Shown here piece by piece: positions 47,657 to 51,719 of a stretch of 51,719 nt of DNA. The translations under genes were made by a program, and so were the position numbers. How positions within the stretch are numbered: the first letter of the stretch is position 1; each line of letters starts with the position of its first letter. The notes below the pieces were generated by a model, which had not been told where the DNA came from, ran no database searches, and worked only from the letters and a program-made list of their open reading frames with translations. This stretch comes from Oscillospiraceae bacterium. GTDB lineage: Bacteria > Bacillota > Clostridia > Oscillospirales > Oscillospiraceae. The stretch is taken from positions 1 to 51,719 of the forward strand of contig JAFSEW010000005.1 of the NCBI GenBank assembly GCA_017435525.1, in the 5' to 3' direction.

Positions 47657-47684
47657 ACAGCCCTGTGGAATTCCACAGGGCTGT
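47657..47684. terminator. Bidirectional terminator after the YfhO-type gene
   Basis: A perfect 28-base palindrome with half ACAGCCCTGTGGAA, between convergent genes. Confidence 0.85.
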
Positions 47685-48996: not shown

Positions 48997-49317
48997 CTAT
49001 CCGCGTATACCTCTGCGATTTCCTTTAGCCCAAAGGGTATACACTACCCAAATGCCCCATGCAATCCCGCAGGAAATGAGAAACAGGGCGCAATAGAACG
49101 CAACGATCAGATAGATAAATGCAATCCATGTTCCGGCTGTAATTGCCAAGCTGTAAAAAGTAATCGTTGCAATACCAATTAGCACCGCCGGTAAGCATTT
49201 CAAGAAAACTTTTTTTGCTCTAAAGCAGAGCTCAAGCTGAATAGGCAGGACGATCAAAACGCCACATGCCACAGCACAAATGACCAGCCAAAAATCTCCG
49301 CTTAACAAATCAGCCAT
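48997..49317 (-). CDS. Small membrane protein with three helices
   Basis: Function unknown. The 106 residues contain three hydrophobic segments (residues about 9-28, 40-60 and 65-95) and a short basic tail (AKGNRRGIRG). AGGAGTGTTACCTAT precedes the ATG and a promoter is present, so it is probably a real gene. Confidence 0.72.
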   Translation of the reverse strand: MADLLSGDFWLVICAVACGVLIVLPIQLELCFRAKKVFLKCLPAVLIGIATITFYSLAITAGTWIAFIYLIVAFYCALFLISCGIAWGIWVVYTLWAKGNRRGIRG

Positions 49318-49351
49318 ATAGGTAACACTCCTTTATCTTCTGATTATCGTT

Positions 49352-49380
49352 ACTATAACAAATTTCGCAAGCATTGTCCA
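49352..49380 (-). promoter_or_regulatory. Promoter of the small membrane-protein gene
   Basis: Minus-strand TGGACA (49375-49380) and TATAGT (49352-49357), 17-base spacer. Confidence 0.7.
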
Positions 49381-49391
49381 CAGGCAGATAC

Positions 49392-49450
49392 AAAAGCCTC
49401 CACATTTCTGTGGAGGCTTTTGTGTTTGCGTTATCTGGTTTTTCAGATAT
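49392..49450. repeat. Structured repeat, copy A
   Basis: Plus strand: hairpin AAAAGCCTCCACA / TGTGGAGGCTTTT (49392-49421), then TGTGTTTGCGT, then a second hairpin TATCTG / CAGATA (49432-49449). On the minus strand the order is stem-loop, ACGCAAACAC linker, terminator-like hairpin with T tract. Lies downstream of the XRE gene and its own terminator. Confidence 0.75.
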
Positions 49451-49480
49451 GAGAAGCTAACATCGTTCCTCACAGATACA

Positions 49481-49512
49481 AAAACTGTCTGTTCAATTTC
49501 GAACAGACAGTT
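49481..49512 (-). terminator. Terminator of the XRE gene at 49512
   Basis: Perfect 12-bp stem AACTGTCTGTTC / GAACAGACAGTT with a 6-base loop, followed on the minus strand by TTTTGTATC. Confidence 0.88.
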
Positions 49513-49736
49513 CATTTATTGTATGGCTTTGAGGTATTTACGATACCCAAAATATAATCCGTCGAAGTTTTGTATAGCTGAGCAAGTCTGATTAACACAT
49601 CGGTTGGAATATCTCGCAAACCACGTTCATACCGACTATATTGCGGTTGCTTCATCCCTAGATATTCAGCAACCTGCTGTTGCGAAAGATCATGATCTTC
49701 GCGTAAGTCCCTCAACCTCGGATAATAATTATCCAC
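49512..49736 (-). CDS. XRE-family helix-turn-helix regulator
   Basis: The 74-residue protein is a single Cro/C1 HTH: LREDHDLSQQQVAEYLGMKQ, then YSRYERGLRDIPTDVLIRLA. A GTG at 49736 is preferred because AGAGGTG lies six bases upstream. Divergent from the lipoprotein gene; two related 13-base sites in the shared promoter region suggest it controls both. AT-rich compared with the core genes. Confidence 0.87.
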   Translation of the reverse strand: MDNYYPRLRDLREDHDLSQQQVAEYLGMKQPQYSRYERGLRDIPTDVLIRLAQLYKTSTDYILGIVNTSKPYNK

Positions 49737-49750
49737 AGTCAACACCTCTG

Positions 49751-49817
49751 ATAACTATTTGGTATTGACATGGTAACACATGCATATTATAATCATGCTA
49801 TTCTATAGCCATTTGGT
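49751..49817. promoter_or_regulatory. Promoter of the lipoprotein gene with two repeated sites
   Basis: TTGACA (49765-49770) and TATAAT (49788-49793), 17-base spacer. ATAACTATTTGGT (49751-49763) and ATAGCCATTTGGT (49805-49817) match at 11 of 13 positions and flank the promoter, a plausible pair of operators for the adjacent XRE protein. Confidence 0.75.
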
Positions 49818-49835
49818 TATATTCGGAGGTGCAAA

Positions 49836-50513
49836 ATGAAAAGAATATCAATCATTATCCTATTATCAATCTTGCTTATGCTTGCAGCATGCAGTCAAGA
49901 TAGCACACAATTGCAGTCGCCCAGTCAATCAGCAACACAAATGTCAAGTGAATTAAAAGGCGTACCCGAATCAGTTGTACTAAGAAATATCACATATAGC
50001 ATGAACGAATGTATTAATCACAAAATCATTCACAATGTAGATACTGAAGCCCATACAGATAATGTTGAAGTAACTTTATACTTTGAATACCCTTTTGCCA
50101 CAAAGACAGCATATATATCATATTTATATCAATACAACAAATCGAGTGATTTATGGGAGCTTTTGCAAGAAAGTGAAGCAGAAGTAGAAATAATGATTAA
50201 TGAATCAGCATATGTAAACGGTTCACCATGGGTTGGCACAATTGAGGGATATCTTGATTGCTCATACACAATATCATTCCTTGAAATCGATACAAGCGAA
50301 ATGCTTGCTAAAATTGAGTATGAAATCTACTTTGAAAATGACGAGATACCTGATTTAATCGGAATCGATACCGTTGATATTGATCCTTACTGGCACAATA
50401 TACTTATAGACTGTAGTTATGAACACTATTTAGGAAACGGATACTATACGACCAAAAATGAATCATTATGGTTTTGGCTTGATATGGTCACTGGATGTCA
50501 ACCATTTCAATAA
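49836..50513 (+). CDS. Hypothetical lipoprotein
   Basis: Function unknown. The 225 residues begin with a lipoprotein signal (ISIIILLSILLMLAAC, lipobox LAAC, Cys at residue 19), then a Ser/Gln-rich linker and an acidic beta-rich domain with many Tyr and Glu. No family recognised. Codon use is distinctly AT-rich relative to the housekeeping genes, suggesting recent acquisition. GGAGGTGCAAA precedes the ATG. Confidence 0.8.
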   Translation: MKRISIIILLSILLMLAACSQDSTQLQSPSQSATQMSSELKGVPESVVLRNITYSMNECINHKIIHNVDTEAHTDNVEVTLYFEYPFATKTAYISYLYQYNKSSDLWELLQESEAEVEIMINESAYVNGSPWVGTIEGYLDCSYTISFLEIDTSEMLAKIEYEIYFENDEIPDLIGIDTVDIDPYWHNILIDCSYEHYLGNGYYTTKNESLWFWLDMVTGCQPFQ

Positions 50514-50524
50514 GCTTATCTCGC

Positions 50525-50560
50525 AATGTGCATCGTGAGAAATCACGATGCACATTTTTG
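50525..50560 (+). terminator. Terminator of the lipoprotein gene
   Basis: Perfect 14-bp stem AATGTGCATCGTGA / TCACGATGCACATT with a GAAA loop and a T run. Confidence 0.92.
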
Positions 50561-50633
50561 TCTCATTGTTCCTGACATTTGCAGTCATTTGGGAACATTA
50601 AAGATTAAAACTCCATCATATCGGTTGCTTTTC

Positions 50634-50665
50634 TTCGTGTTACCTATTTTCTTGGTTAGACAAAG
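50634..50665. repeat. Structured repeat, copy B (degenerate)
   Basis: The linker and tail part only: GTGTTACCTATTTTCTTGG matches copy F over most positions (GCGTTACCTATTTTGCGG), without the first hairpin. It lies in the gene-free stretch 50514-50951, which otherwise holds only the lipoprotein terminator and copies C and D. Confidence 0.55.
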
Positions 50666-50753
50666 AAAAATCTCCAGATTTCTGGAGGTTTCAGTGTTTA
50701 TTTTACATGCTCTCGCGGTTAGGGCAACTATCCTTTGCCGTTAAGAAACATGC
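50666..50753. repeat. Structured repeat, copy C
   Basis: Hairpin CTCCAGA / TCTGGAG, linker GTGTTTATTTTACAT (degenerate), then GGTTAGGGCAACTATCC and GTTAAGAAACATGCC, the last 37 bases differing from copy F at a single base. Confidence 0.75.
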
Positions 50754-50774
50754 CGGTGCATATTTTAGGAAAAG

Positions 50775-50843
50775 AAAAGCCTCCACATTTCTGTGGAGGC
50801 TTTCGTGTTTACGTAACCTGGTTTCACGGCCAGTCACCCGGCA
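50775..50843. repeat. Structured repeat, copy D
   Basis: Same first hairpin as copy A (GCCTCCACA / TGTGGAGGC), linker GTGTTTACGTAACC, then a second stem that keeps pairing (GTAACCTGG with CCAGTCAC, one bulge) although its sequence differs from the other copies. Confidence 0.75.
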
Positions 50844-50951
50844 ACTGTTTTACGCATTTATGTTATAATTACGATCCAAAGCAATTCTTGATACTTGTTG
50901 ATGCAGTACATTCCATCCATATCTTACACCGTAGTAAGCACTACAGGAAAG

Positions 50952-51458
50952 TTAAGTGTGCAATGCACTTTCTATTGAAAAACTTGCCAGAAAATCATCG
51001 ATTGCAGATTGAGTACGCAAGACTACAATTCTGTCAGGATACAGCTGCATAATGCGTTTATAGTGGCCTCGGCGTTCCTTATTTCTGCACCCAAACAGCA
51101 AATACCGAAGAAACCAAGGGTTGATATCCTTCTGATAGCCTGCAGCCTTTCGCTCTTTTGTGCGGCGCAGCGCTCGGAATAAGCATTGCACCCTTGGAAG
51201 CATCACAAAAATGATTCTATCGGCCATTTCCAATCGCTGCGTCTGAAGAAGATCATCATAATTGCCGTCAATGATCCAGCTGTCCCGCTCCATCAGCTTC
51301 TGGATGTCCGGCAGAATTTTCTTACGGTCTACCGCTTTCCAATTGAGATCAAACGCAATATCATCCAACTCCAGCTTTGGTATCCCAAGCTTCTTTGATA
51401 GATTGCGCGCCAAGACAGATTTTCCGCTCCCAACATAACCCATGATTGCAATTTTCAT
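50952..51458 (-). CDS. P-loop kinase-like protein (adenylate kinase/FlaR-like)
   Basis: Probable nucleoside or small-molecule kinase. The 168 residues start MKIAIMGYVGSGKSVLARNL with Walker A GYVGSGKS (residues 7-14), ELDDIAFDLNW, and IIDGNYDD, followed by an Arg-rich lid (RALRRTKERKA). This matches proteins annotated as DNA topology modulation protein FlaR or adenylate kinase-like; true substrate unknown. The start at 51458 follows TTGGAGGTGTATC. No promoter is visible between repeat copy E and the start, so the message may pass through that repeat. Confidence 0.85.
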   Translation of the reverse strand: MKIAIMGYVGSGKSVLARNLSKKLGIPKLELDDIAFDLNWKAVDRKKILPDIQKLMERDSWIIDGNYDDLLQTQRLEMADRIIFVMLPRVQCLFRALRRTKERKAAGYQKDINPWFLRYLLFGCRNKERRGHYKRIMQLYPDRIVVLRTQSAIDDFLASFSIESALHT

Positions 51459-51498
51459 GATACACCTCCAATTTTTCAAAGAAATAAAAAAACGACGA

Positions 51499-51610
51499 AA
51501 AACCTCACAGCATAAGCTGTGAGGTTTTGTGTTTGCGTTACCTGTTCTCACGGCTAGGCAAGCTATCGTCATGCCGTCGCAAGTGTCCGGTGGACACTTG
51601 CAGGCATCTG
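51499..51610. repeat. Structured repeat, copy E (leader of the kinase gene on the minus strand)
   Basis: Plus strand: hairpin AAAACCTCACAGC / GCTGTGAGGTTTT (51499-51528), GTGTTTGCGTTACC linker, then CGGCTAGGCAAGCTATCG and an added perfect hairpin GCAAGTGTCC / GGACACTTGC (51579-51601) with outer ATGCC/GGCAT pairing. On the minus strand the first hairpin is followed by TTTTTCGTCGTTTTTTT and lies 40 bases before the kinase start. Confidence 0.78.
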
Positions 51611-51631
51611 GTTAATTCTCAGAATATAGAA

Positions 51632-51719
51632 AAAGAACCAAGCCTAAGCTTGGTTCTTTGTGTTTGCGTTACCTATTTTGCGGTTAGGGCAACTATCCTT
51701 TGCCATTAAGAAACATGCC
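51632..51719. repeat. Structured repeat, copy F (runs off the window)
   Basis: Hairpin AAAGAACCAAGC / GCTTGGTTCTTT (51632-51659), linker GTGTTTGCGTTACC, then GGTTAGGGCAACTATCC and AAGAAACATGCC to the window end. Tail matches copy C almost exactly. Confidence 0.75.

Follow-up and report, generated by a model that had tools for sequence, protein, structure and literature searches.

Repeats at a contig end of an uncultured Oscillospiraceae bacterium are probably 5S rRNA gene remnants with their own terminators

A short repeat lies at one end of a contig from an Oscillospiraceae bacterium (JAFSEW010000005.1; contig C12 of the 67-contig, 77%-complete genome G000). The window, meaning the whole stretch of DNA analyzed, is this entire contig of 51,719 bp, and it ends inside a repeat copy. 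Contig C58 of the same genome (47,512 bp) terminates in the identical 141 bp, in the same orientation. We identified five ungapped, in-register copies of 50 nt starting at 49392 (A), 50664 (C), 50775 (D), 51499 (E) and 51630 (F), and a sixth, degenerate copy (B) near 50634. These copies had been described in a first-pass annotation, and its account of their layout was also confirmed: all have a single orientation and read on the minus strand as a stem-loop, the linker CGCAAACAC and an intrinsic terminator. Nine terminator-like sites were found in the window, compared to 1.9 expected from shuffles; copies C, D, E and F account for four of these with their minus-strand terminators. Taken by itself, the linker gives a weak signal. 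With up to three mismatches it occurs four times in the window (shuffle mean 0.76), a count also reached in 2 of 100 shuffles. The repeats, named by their predicted relation to 5S ribosomal RNA (rRNA) and scored with a covariance model of related units (R1), and the neighboring genes are:

51660..51719, minus strand: copy F, mini-5S unit truncated by the contig end, with the 5S 3' part carrying a six-base deletion and the 5S 3' terminus CGCAAACAC; 34 of 37 aligned positions match a relative's 5S (0 of 500 shuffles as good); R1 34.5 bits
51630..51659, minus strand: copy F intrinsic terminator, 12-bp stem and T tail; a near-identical sequence lies 3' of the 5S gene in genome G121
51529..51609, minus strand: copy E, the best-preserved mini-5S unit, with outer stem ATGCC/GGCAT, hairpin GCAAGTGTCC-ACC-GGACACTTGC at 51579-51601, then the 5S 3' part; 37 of 40 positions match 5S (0 of 500 shuffles); R1 86.8 bits, copy E itself being among the 33 sequences behind the model
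51499..51528, minus strand: copy E intrinsic terminator, 13-bp stem; folding z of -6.8 jointly with the unit
50805..50846, minus strand: copy D, truncated piece of a full-type 5S that retains GGGTGA of the loop-D arm; 37 of 41 positions match positions 75-115 of a relative's 116-nt 5S (0 of 500 shuffles)
50775..50804, minus strand: copy D intrinsic terminator from the terminator scan, with the hairpin of copy A (92% identity over 50 nt)
50694..50774, minus strand: copy C, decayed mini-5S unit; R1 34.1 bits; a 40-nt stretch in common with copy F at 98%; plain 5S alignment not significant
50664..50693, minus strand: copy C terminator (terminator scan, 50687-50672)
50634..50663, minus strand: copy B, degenerate 5S 3' end; 17 of 18 positions match 5S (0 of 500 shuffles); R1 20.9 bits for 50631-50688
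49422..49471, minus strand: copy A, the 5S 3' end with the most decay, lying 2.3 kb from the contig end and aligned over about 49423-49445; 19 of 21 positions match 5S (0 of 500 shuffles, with a narrow margin: score 25, best shuffle 24); no R1 match at E up to 0.05
49392..49421, minus strand: copy A terminator-like hairpin with 15-bp arms, absent from the terminator-scan list
50952..51458, minus strand: small P-loop kinase gene (AAA_18; PF13238, E 7.9e-7), between copies D and E
49836..50513, plus strand: lipoprotein-like gene of unassigned function between copies A and B (open reading frame (ORF); LPAM_1 E 0.005, below the cut-off)
49521..49739, minus strand: HTH_3 (Cro/C1-type) regulator gene adjoining copy A (PF01381, E 2e-16)

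The pattern GTGTTTGCGTTACCT, with one mismatch allowed, is present in 29 of 99 genomes sampled as relatives, and a 5S-like tail follows it in 19 of the 24 same-genus loci retrieved with it. When ten such loci were searched with cmscan, nine gave RF00001 (5S rRNA) matches of 58-93 bits. Because these matches end in the linker, we identify CGCAAACAC as the 3' terminus of 5S rRNA (the 3' strand of helix I), the first hairpin as the terminator behind a 5S gene, and the tail as the 5S 3' part. The first-pass annotation, which did not recognize a known family, had named a match to an Rfam family as grounds for giving up that claim. RF00001 is such a match, so the claim of an unknown family falls. 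Judging from their sequence, the repeats are broken copies of the tail of a 5S rRNA gene, each with its own terminator.

We aligned the window copies with the 5S genes of seven relatives, using 500 shuffles each. Copies A, B, D, E and F beat all 500 shuffles, copy A only narrowly, with alignments confined to positions 69-115 of a 116-nt 5S. Copy C was recognized only through the covariance model and its likeness to copy F. The loop-D arm lacks six bases (GGGTGA) in copy F and seven in copy E; copy D is of the full, undeleted type. No functional 5S gene (RF00001, gathering score 38 bits) was found in the window or in the whole assembly, and none is listed at E up to 10 in 49300-51719. The lack of an assembled 5S gene in this genome is as expected if contigs break there.

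Other candidates were rejected. Known Rfam leader and small RNA families gave only 16 weak matches (E 0.011-6.2), all below gathering. A cassette array with attC-like sites, an idea taken from the spacing and the contig ends, was abandoned once the linker had been matched to the 5S end. A plasmid or phage origin was dropped, as no match was found in plasmids or phages and a scan of IMG/VR viral contigs with the mini-5S pattern returned none.

Two structural readings of the first-pass annotation were not borne out. It had treated the first hairpin as one hairpin with compensating arms. Instead, copies C, E and F carry different, exchanged terminators, and copies A and D share one; the sequence varies because a terminator only has to pair. 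It had also reported compensation in the second stem (CCTR/YAGG), which shows nearly no covariation over 33 relatives. The expectation that covariation would become significant with more copies did hold, and strongly so, in an upstream hairpin that the annotation did not name.

In relatives, the full unit begins with an outer stem (e.g., ATGCC/GGCAT) and a hairpin whose stem is about 10 bp long and whose loop has three bases; the 5S 3' part with its internal deletion, the 5S 3' end and a terminator follow. The hairpin replaces the 5' half of 5S, and about 6 nt of the loop-D arm are deleted. The commonest loop is ACC; ACT, ACA, CCC and others also occur. We aligned 33 of 55 distinct sequences resembling the mini-5S unit. 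Left out were 22: matches due to chance, sequences chimeric with another insert, near-duplicates, and variants whose 5' part differs or has decayed. In the alignment 95.7% of cells pair, a percentage inflated by the picking of canonical-hairpin units, and changes on both sides are found at 13 of 19 pairs (104 such cells). Neither the percentage paired nor the number of such cells was reached by any of 500 shuffles. Counted by stem, the pairs with both sides changed are 4 of 5 (outer stem), 8 of 10 (hairpin) and 1 of 4 (CCTR/YAGG stem). The covarying hairpin is the upstream one, at 51579-51601 in the window.

A covarying 5' hairpin, a stable fold and a retained 5S 3' part are features that could mark a functional small RNA: read-through would produce a mini-5S able to bind a processing enzyme or 5S ligands. 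We consider this improbable, as the units lack the loop-D arm and the 5' strand of helix I, the window copies decay, and no promoter-like site was identified upstream of copies E and F within the contig (minus strand, 51480-51719). The selected RNA or structure-recognized DNA site proposed in the first-pass annotation was not established by the analysis. The covarying hairpin is nevertheless the main point that a reading of the repeats as 5S remnants leaves unexplained. Selection on the hairpin, or repair of a palindrome by template switching, would both fit.

Since ordinary 5S 3' ends also get about 20-28 bits from R1, only matches of at least 36 bits were counted as units; this threshold leaves out window copies F, C and B. 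At E up to 0.01, R1 matches 62 of 136 genomes of the genus, and at 36 bits or more it gives 71 matches on 49 contigs of 37 of the 136. In a sample of 245 genomes from the order, G000 alone reached 36 bits and two others scored 26.7-28.3 bits, as ordinary 5S 3' ends do; spread beyond the genus was rejected on this sample. Scanning GTDB genomes with a pattern yielded 21 stretches, whose titles name metagenome-assembled genomes (MAGs) or uncultured Oscillospiraceae, Clostridia, Clostridiales or Bacillota.

The units are preceded by a 5S gene (28) or a 5S 3' part (4) on 32 of the 49 contigs, window copy D not being counted. Most of the remaining 17 contigs begin in or near the array. Tandem units are spaced 107-145 bp apart in 44 of 46 cases (the other two are 194 and 243 bp). 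In one array (L098), 23S and 5S genes are followed by five units and further DNA. Two others lie inside contigs, with a 5S gene followed by two units (L102) or by one (L106). Within L102 1-6722 and L106 3294-3550, the 5S genes have no 23S directly before them and may be stand-alone genes with satellite units of their own.

Strong matches cluster at contig ends: 70 of 71 lie within 1,300 bp of a contig end on their 5' side, compared to 4.9 expected if uniform. Such clustering in draft MAGs could be produced by collapsed rRNA operons, which would make the arrays an assembly artefact. This is very improbable. The L098, L102 and L106 arrays are assembled with flanks on both sides (in L102 and L106 thousands of bases inside the locus), arrays occur in assemblies of different projects, and units within one array often differ from each other.

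A terminator was found behind 53 of 63 units and behind all 28 full 5S genes, and so stands before the next unit. The units might be functional tandem terminators, retained since rRNA transcription is hard to stop and each unit adds one terminator. Their uniform orientation, and stems that exchange yet still pair, are consistent with this explanation. It leaves the retention of 5S sequence and of the upstream hairpin unexplained, and strong matches are present in only 37 of the 136 genomes (a number lowered by incomplete assembly and strict filters). We regard it as rather unlikely.

The units resemble the 5S genes of their own genomes. The 14-nt 3' end is identical to own-genome 5S in 25 of 41 units (0 of 5000 permutations as good), and a near copy of the own 5S terminator is found in 9 of 31 first units, compared to 1.5% of cross pairs; the permutation tests ignore phylogeny. 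Own-genome 5S versions together with own terminators fit repeated duplication or gene conversion from the 5S genes. The 5S identity, the tandem layout behind 5S in relatives, the terminators, the covariation of the 5' hairpin and the match of many unit 3' ends to own 5S are directly supported.

On this evidence, we consider it quite likely that the end of the window represents decaying sequence 3' of a 5S gene, most likely at the distal end of an rRNA operon, and that the repeats are remnants of the last 20-50 nt of 5S with terminators, copies E, F and C being mini-5S units. The 5S gene and its operon would lie just past the end of the contig. Units may arise by duplication of the 5S 3' end and terminator joined to the hairpin, and exchange with the 5S genes, through recombination or gene conversion, may keep them alike. 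They would yield no ribosomal 5S, and their sole likely effect would be spare termination of transcription leaving the operon. The older units A-D appear to have been separated by inserted genes (HTH, lipoprotein-like and small kinase) and to be decaying. We favor this interpretation of the units as putative recombination-maintained remnants that serve at most as spare terminators.

Several observations weigh against the interpretation as 5S remnants. The plain 5S alignment of copy C was matched by 16 of 500 shuffles and that of copy A is marginal, and the permutation tests are blind to phylogeny. The upstream hairpin covaries more strongly than expected for dead remnants, 10 of 63 units have no terminator by the criterion used, and the sole unit of one genome (G117) lies 2 kb inside a contig where no 5S gene was seen. 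A 23S end stands directly before 5S in one array only (L098), so the placement behind an rRNA operon draws largely on the positions of contig breaks. The 23S end closest to the 5S of L102 is about 6 kb away, and no 23S was found in the 8-kb locus of L106. The window contig itself stops before any 5S gene. Thus, we infer the adjacency of the window array to 5S.

The upstream hairpin is dispersed in these genomes, and the idea that it is purely 5S-bound was rejected. Hairpins with a CAACAGTCC stem and a three-base loop, as found in some mini-5S units, were identified in 15 of 37 genomes of the genus (47 sites) and in 0 of 23 others. Just one of the 47 sites (in G017:C66) overlaps a mini-5S match. 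The GCAAGTGTCC form has four sites in the window's genome, one of which (on contig C47) is outside the arrays. We compared two sets of 20 stretches. The first has 19 stretches around CAACAGTCC-type sites and a single stretch, from G000, around the GCAAGTGTCC form; the second, of 20 further stretches, includes nine from this genome, and one G000 site is common to both. In most stretches the hairpin is one arm of a four-stem body of about 140 nt, the outer stem of which uses the T-arm sequence of an opposite-strand transfer RNA (tRNA). Four foldings of three elements gave z of -7.5 to -8.5 for this body. Analysis A2 drew on 19 out of 21 listed sites. Five stretches (L163, L167, L170, L172 and L173) are without the first arm, and L181 deviates. 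These units are:

L163-L182 and L189-L208; in this genome G000:C47:49032, C50:37937, C54:59716, C51:5628, C58:28, C53:29947, C28:78524, C21:41154 and C43:230; opposite strand to the gene: units of about 140 nt linked to tRNA or transfer-messenger RNA (tmRNA) genes, mostly four-stemmed, most with a copy of the tRNA 3' end

A tRNA or tmRNA gene adjoins 16 of 20 stretches in the first set (Rfam gathering score) and 16 of 20 in the second (ARAGORN). All 16 tRNAs of the second set lie on the opposite strand, 14 of them at a distance of 32-45 nt and two (L196 and L208) at about 160 nt. A copy of the neighboring tRNA's own last 19 nt before CCA, with at most three mismatches, lies downstream in 24 of 28 loci with an ARAGORN tRNA; L173, L179, L194 and L208 miss this limit. 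The copy has a mean of 1.9 mismatches to its own tRNA and 7.9 to other tRNAs (0 of 10000 permutations as good). It starts in the T-loop and is found 133-156 nt downstream in 23 of the 24 loci. The gene's terminator is repeated as well in 5 of the 24, and at L176 a perfect 59-bp direct repeat (terminator and tRNA end) surrounds the unit. Viewed against mobile inverted-repeat elements, direct repeats of the gene 3' end and terminator flank some units. Tandem tRNA-linked units occur at L202 and L159. At L159 (1167-2196; G027:C36) there is one unit after tRNA-Gly and a series of four, about 202 bp apart, after tRNA-Cys.

A model of the tRNA-type units (R2) finds them in 118 of the 136 genus genomes. 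In a sample of the family it matches 12 of 150 genomes, and 10 of the 12 are outside the genus, in eight other genera. In the window R2 finds a bare hairpin only (28.2 bits), with an overlapping second match on the plus strand (23.8 bits). A literature search found no published record of the tRNA-linked units, which is weak evidence of absence.

The common hairpin and layout suggest that one process may lie behind both the 5S and the tRNA units. A hairpin element could lodge at the 3' end of a stable RNA gene, and the mini-5S array would be its 5S version. Each insertion would yield a copy of the host gene's 3' end and terminator, so the gene would stay intact. The recurrence of the CAACAGTCC hairpin within the genus, the GCAAGTGTCC site outside the arrays, the four-stem units beside tRNA and tmRNA genes, the copies of own-tRNA 3' ends and the tandem units all point in this direction. 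Against it, the mini-5S and tRNA units have just one hairpin and the layout in common, their linkers differ, and in four of the 28 loci the tRNA end has no good copy. The units were not tied to a transposase, integrase or reverse transcriptase, and no search for such genes was made. We hold this explanation to be possible, short of likely. With the same reserve, this bacterial family might have an undescribed class of hairpin elements that sit where stable RNA genes end (the 3' ends of 5S, of tRNAs of at least 11 amino acids, and of tmRNA), and the window array might be its 5S branch. Each element would consist of the hairpin or four-stem body, a copy of the gene's 3' end and a terminator, possibly formed by copying of an RNA 3' end with template switching onto the element.

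Three further observations were made. An IMG/VR contig (L184, 500-1382) has a tRNA unit beside a tRNA-like 3' end, and the DNA farther on reads by eye as a candidate tyrosine integrase gene. Gut-1 RNA (RF01706) was identified near a tRNA unit in L204 (247-323) and behind 23S, 5S and tRNA genes in L160 (580-652 and 1550-1622). In the window, a perfect 14-bp palindrome (ACAGCCCTGTGGAA/TTCCACAGGGCTGT, 47657-47684) lies between convergent ORFs and is perhaps a bidirectional terminator.

With these results, one would-be new RNA family is struck off; tails of 5S together with terminators can mimic such a family. The array probably trails the rRNA operon of an uncultured gut bacterium. Behind many stable RNA genes of the genus stand satellite units with a copy of the 3' end of the gene in question. 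Should the 5S and the tRNA units be products of one process, this would be a new route by which small elements can settle behind essential RNA genes without breaking them. A practical caution is that such arrays sit at many draft-contig ends in this group. The covarying hairpin and the tRNA-linked units are of lasting interest.

Integrative elements use attachment sites at tRNA 3' ends. The tRNA units, and these only, resemble such sites in their direct copy of the tRNA 3' end from the T-loop onward. They differ in that an integrase gene would not fit in a unit of about 140 nt, and in that each kind of tRNA has its own matching copy. Compared to 5S rRNA (RF00001), the mini-5S units retain the 3' strand of helix I, part of the loop E/helix IV region and the 3' terminus, often in the own-genome version. 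Unlike 5S, they are without the 5' half, the 5' strand of helix I and an intact loop-D arm, and the window gives no gathering match.

The closest known system is that of distal 5S remnants, described for Peptococcaceae and for Pseudoalteromonas (Pseudoalteromonadaceae) (Stepanov & Fox, 2021; PMC7812874). As described there, these remnants are 5S-like without terminal parts, contain foreign core sequence, lie 3' of a normal 5S gene, are sometimes multicopy and have a terminator before each copy, features that the window array would largely share. High 5S similarity without one or both terminal parts is found in copies A, B, D, E and F and not in copy C. In the genus, by the counts above, a terminator generally stands before the next unit, and in the window the terminator scan found those of copies C, D, E and F. 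A 5S gene lies upstream on 32 of 49 genus contigs, with 23S directly before it in L098 only. As to a large insertion in the 5S core, the mini-5S units have a replaced 5' half and a deletion. Other species of the genus hold 5S remnants that, by eye, carry two large GC-rich inserts, one near loop C and one at the loop-D arm, in L057 (G137:C5, 295-850), L081 (G133:C1, 1-470) and L138 (G114:C53), or a single large insert, in L095 (G116:C38). By eye, the large-insert remnants of these four genomes resemble those of Stepanov & Fox (2021). The expanded 5S rRNAs of the same paper have hairpin-rich loop inserts, whereas the mini-5S units are shorter than 5S, not longer. In the parts of the paper covered here, this taxon, a small uniform unit and a shared hairpin are not mentioned. 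The present arrays differ from the published remnants in belonging to an uncultured genus of Oscillospiraceae, in having a small, uniform, tandem unit (hairpin for the 5' half, 6-nt deletion), and in having the same hairpin beside tRNA genes. As classified from sequence, the window array belongs to the distal 5S remnants, a known kind, to which this lineage adds a distinctive hairpin form that is also present behind tRNA genes.

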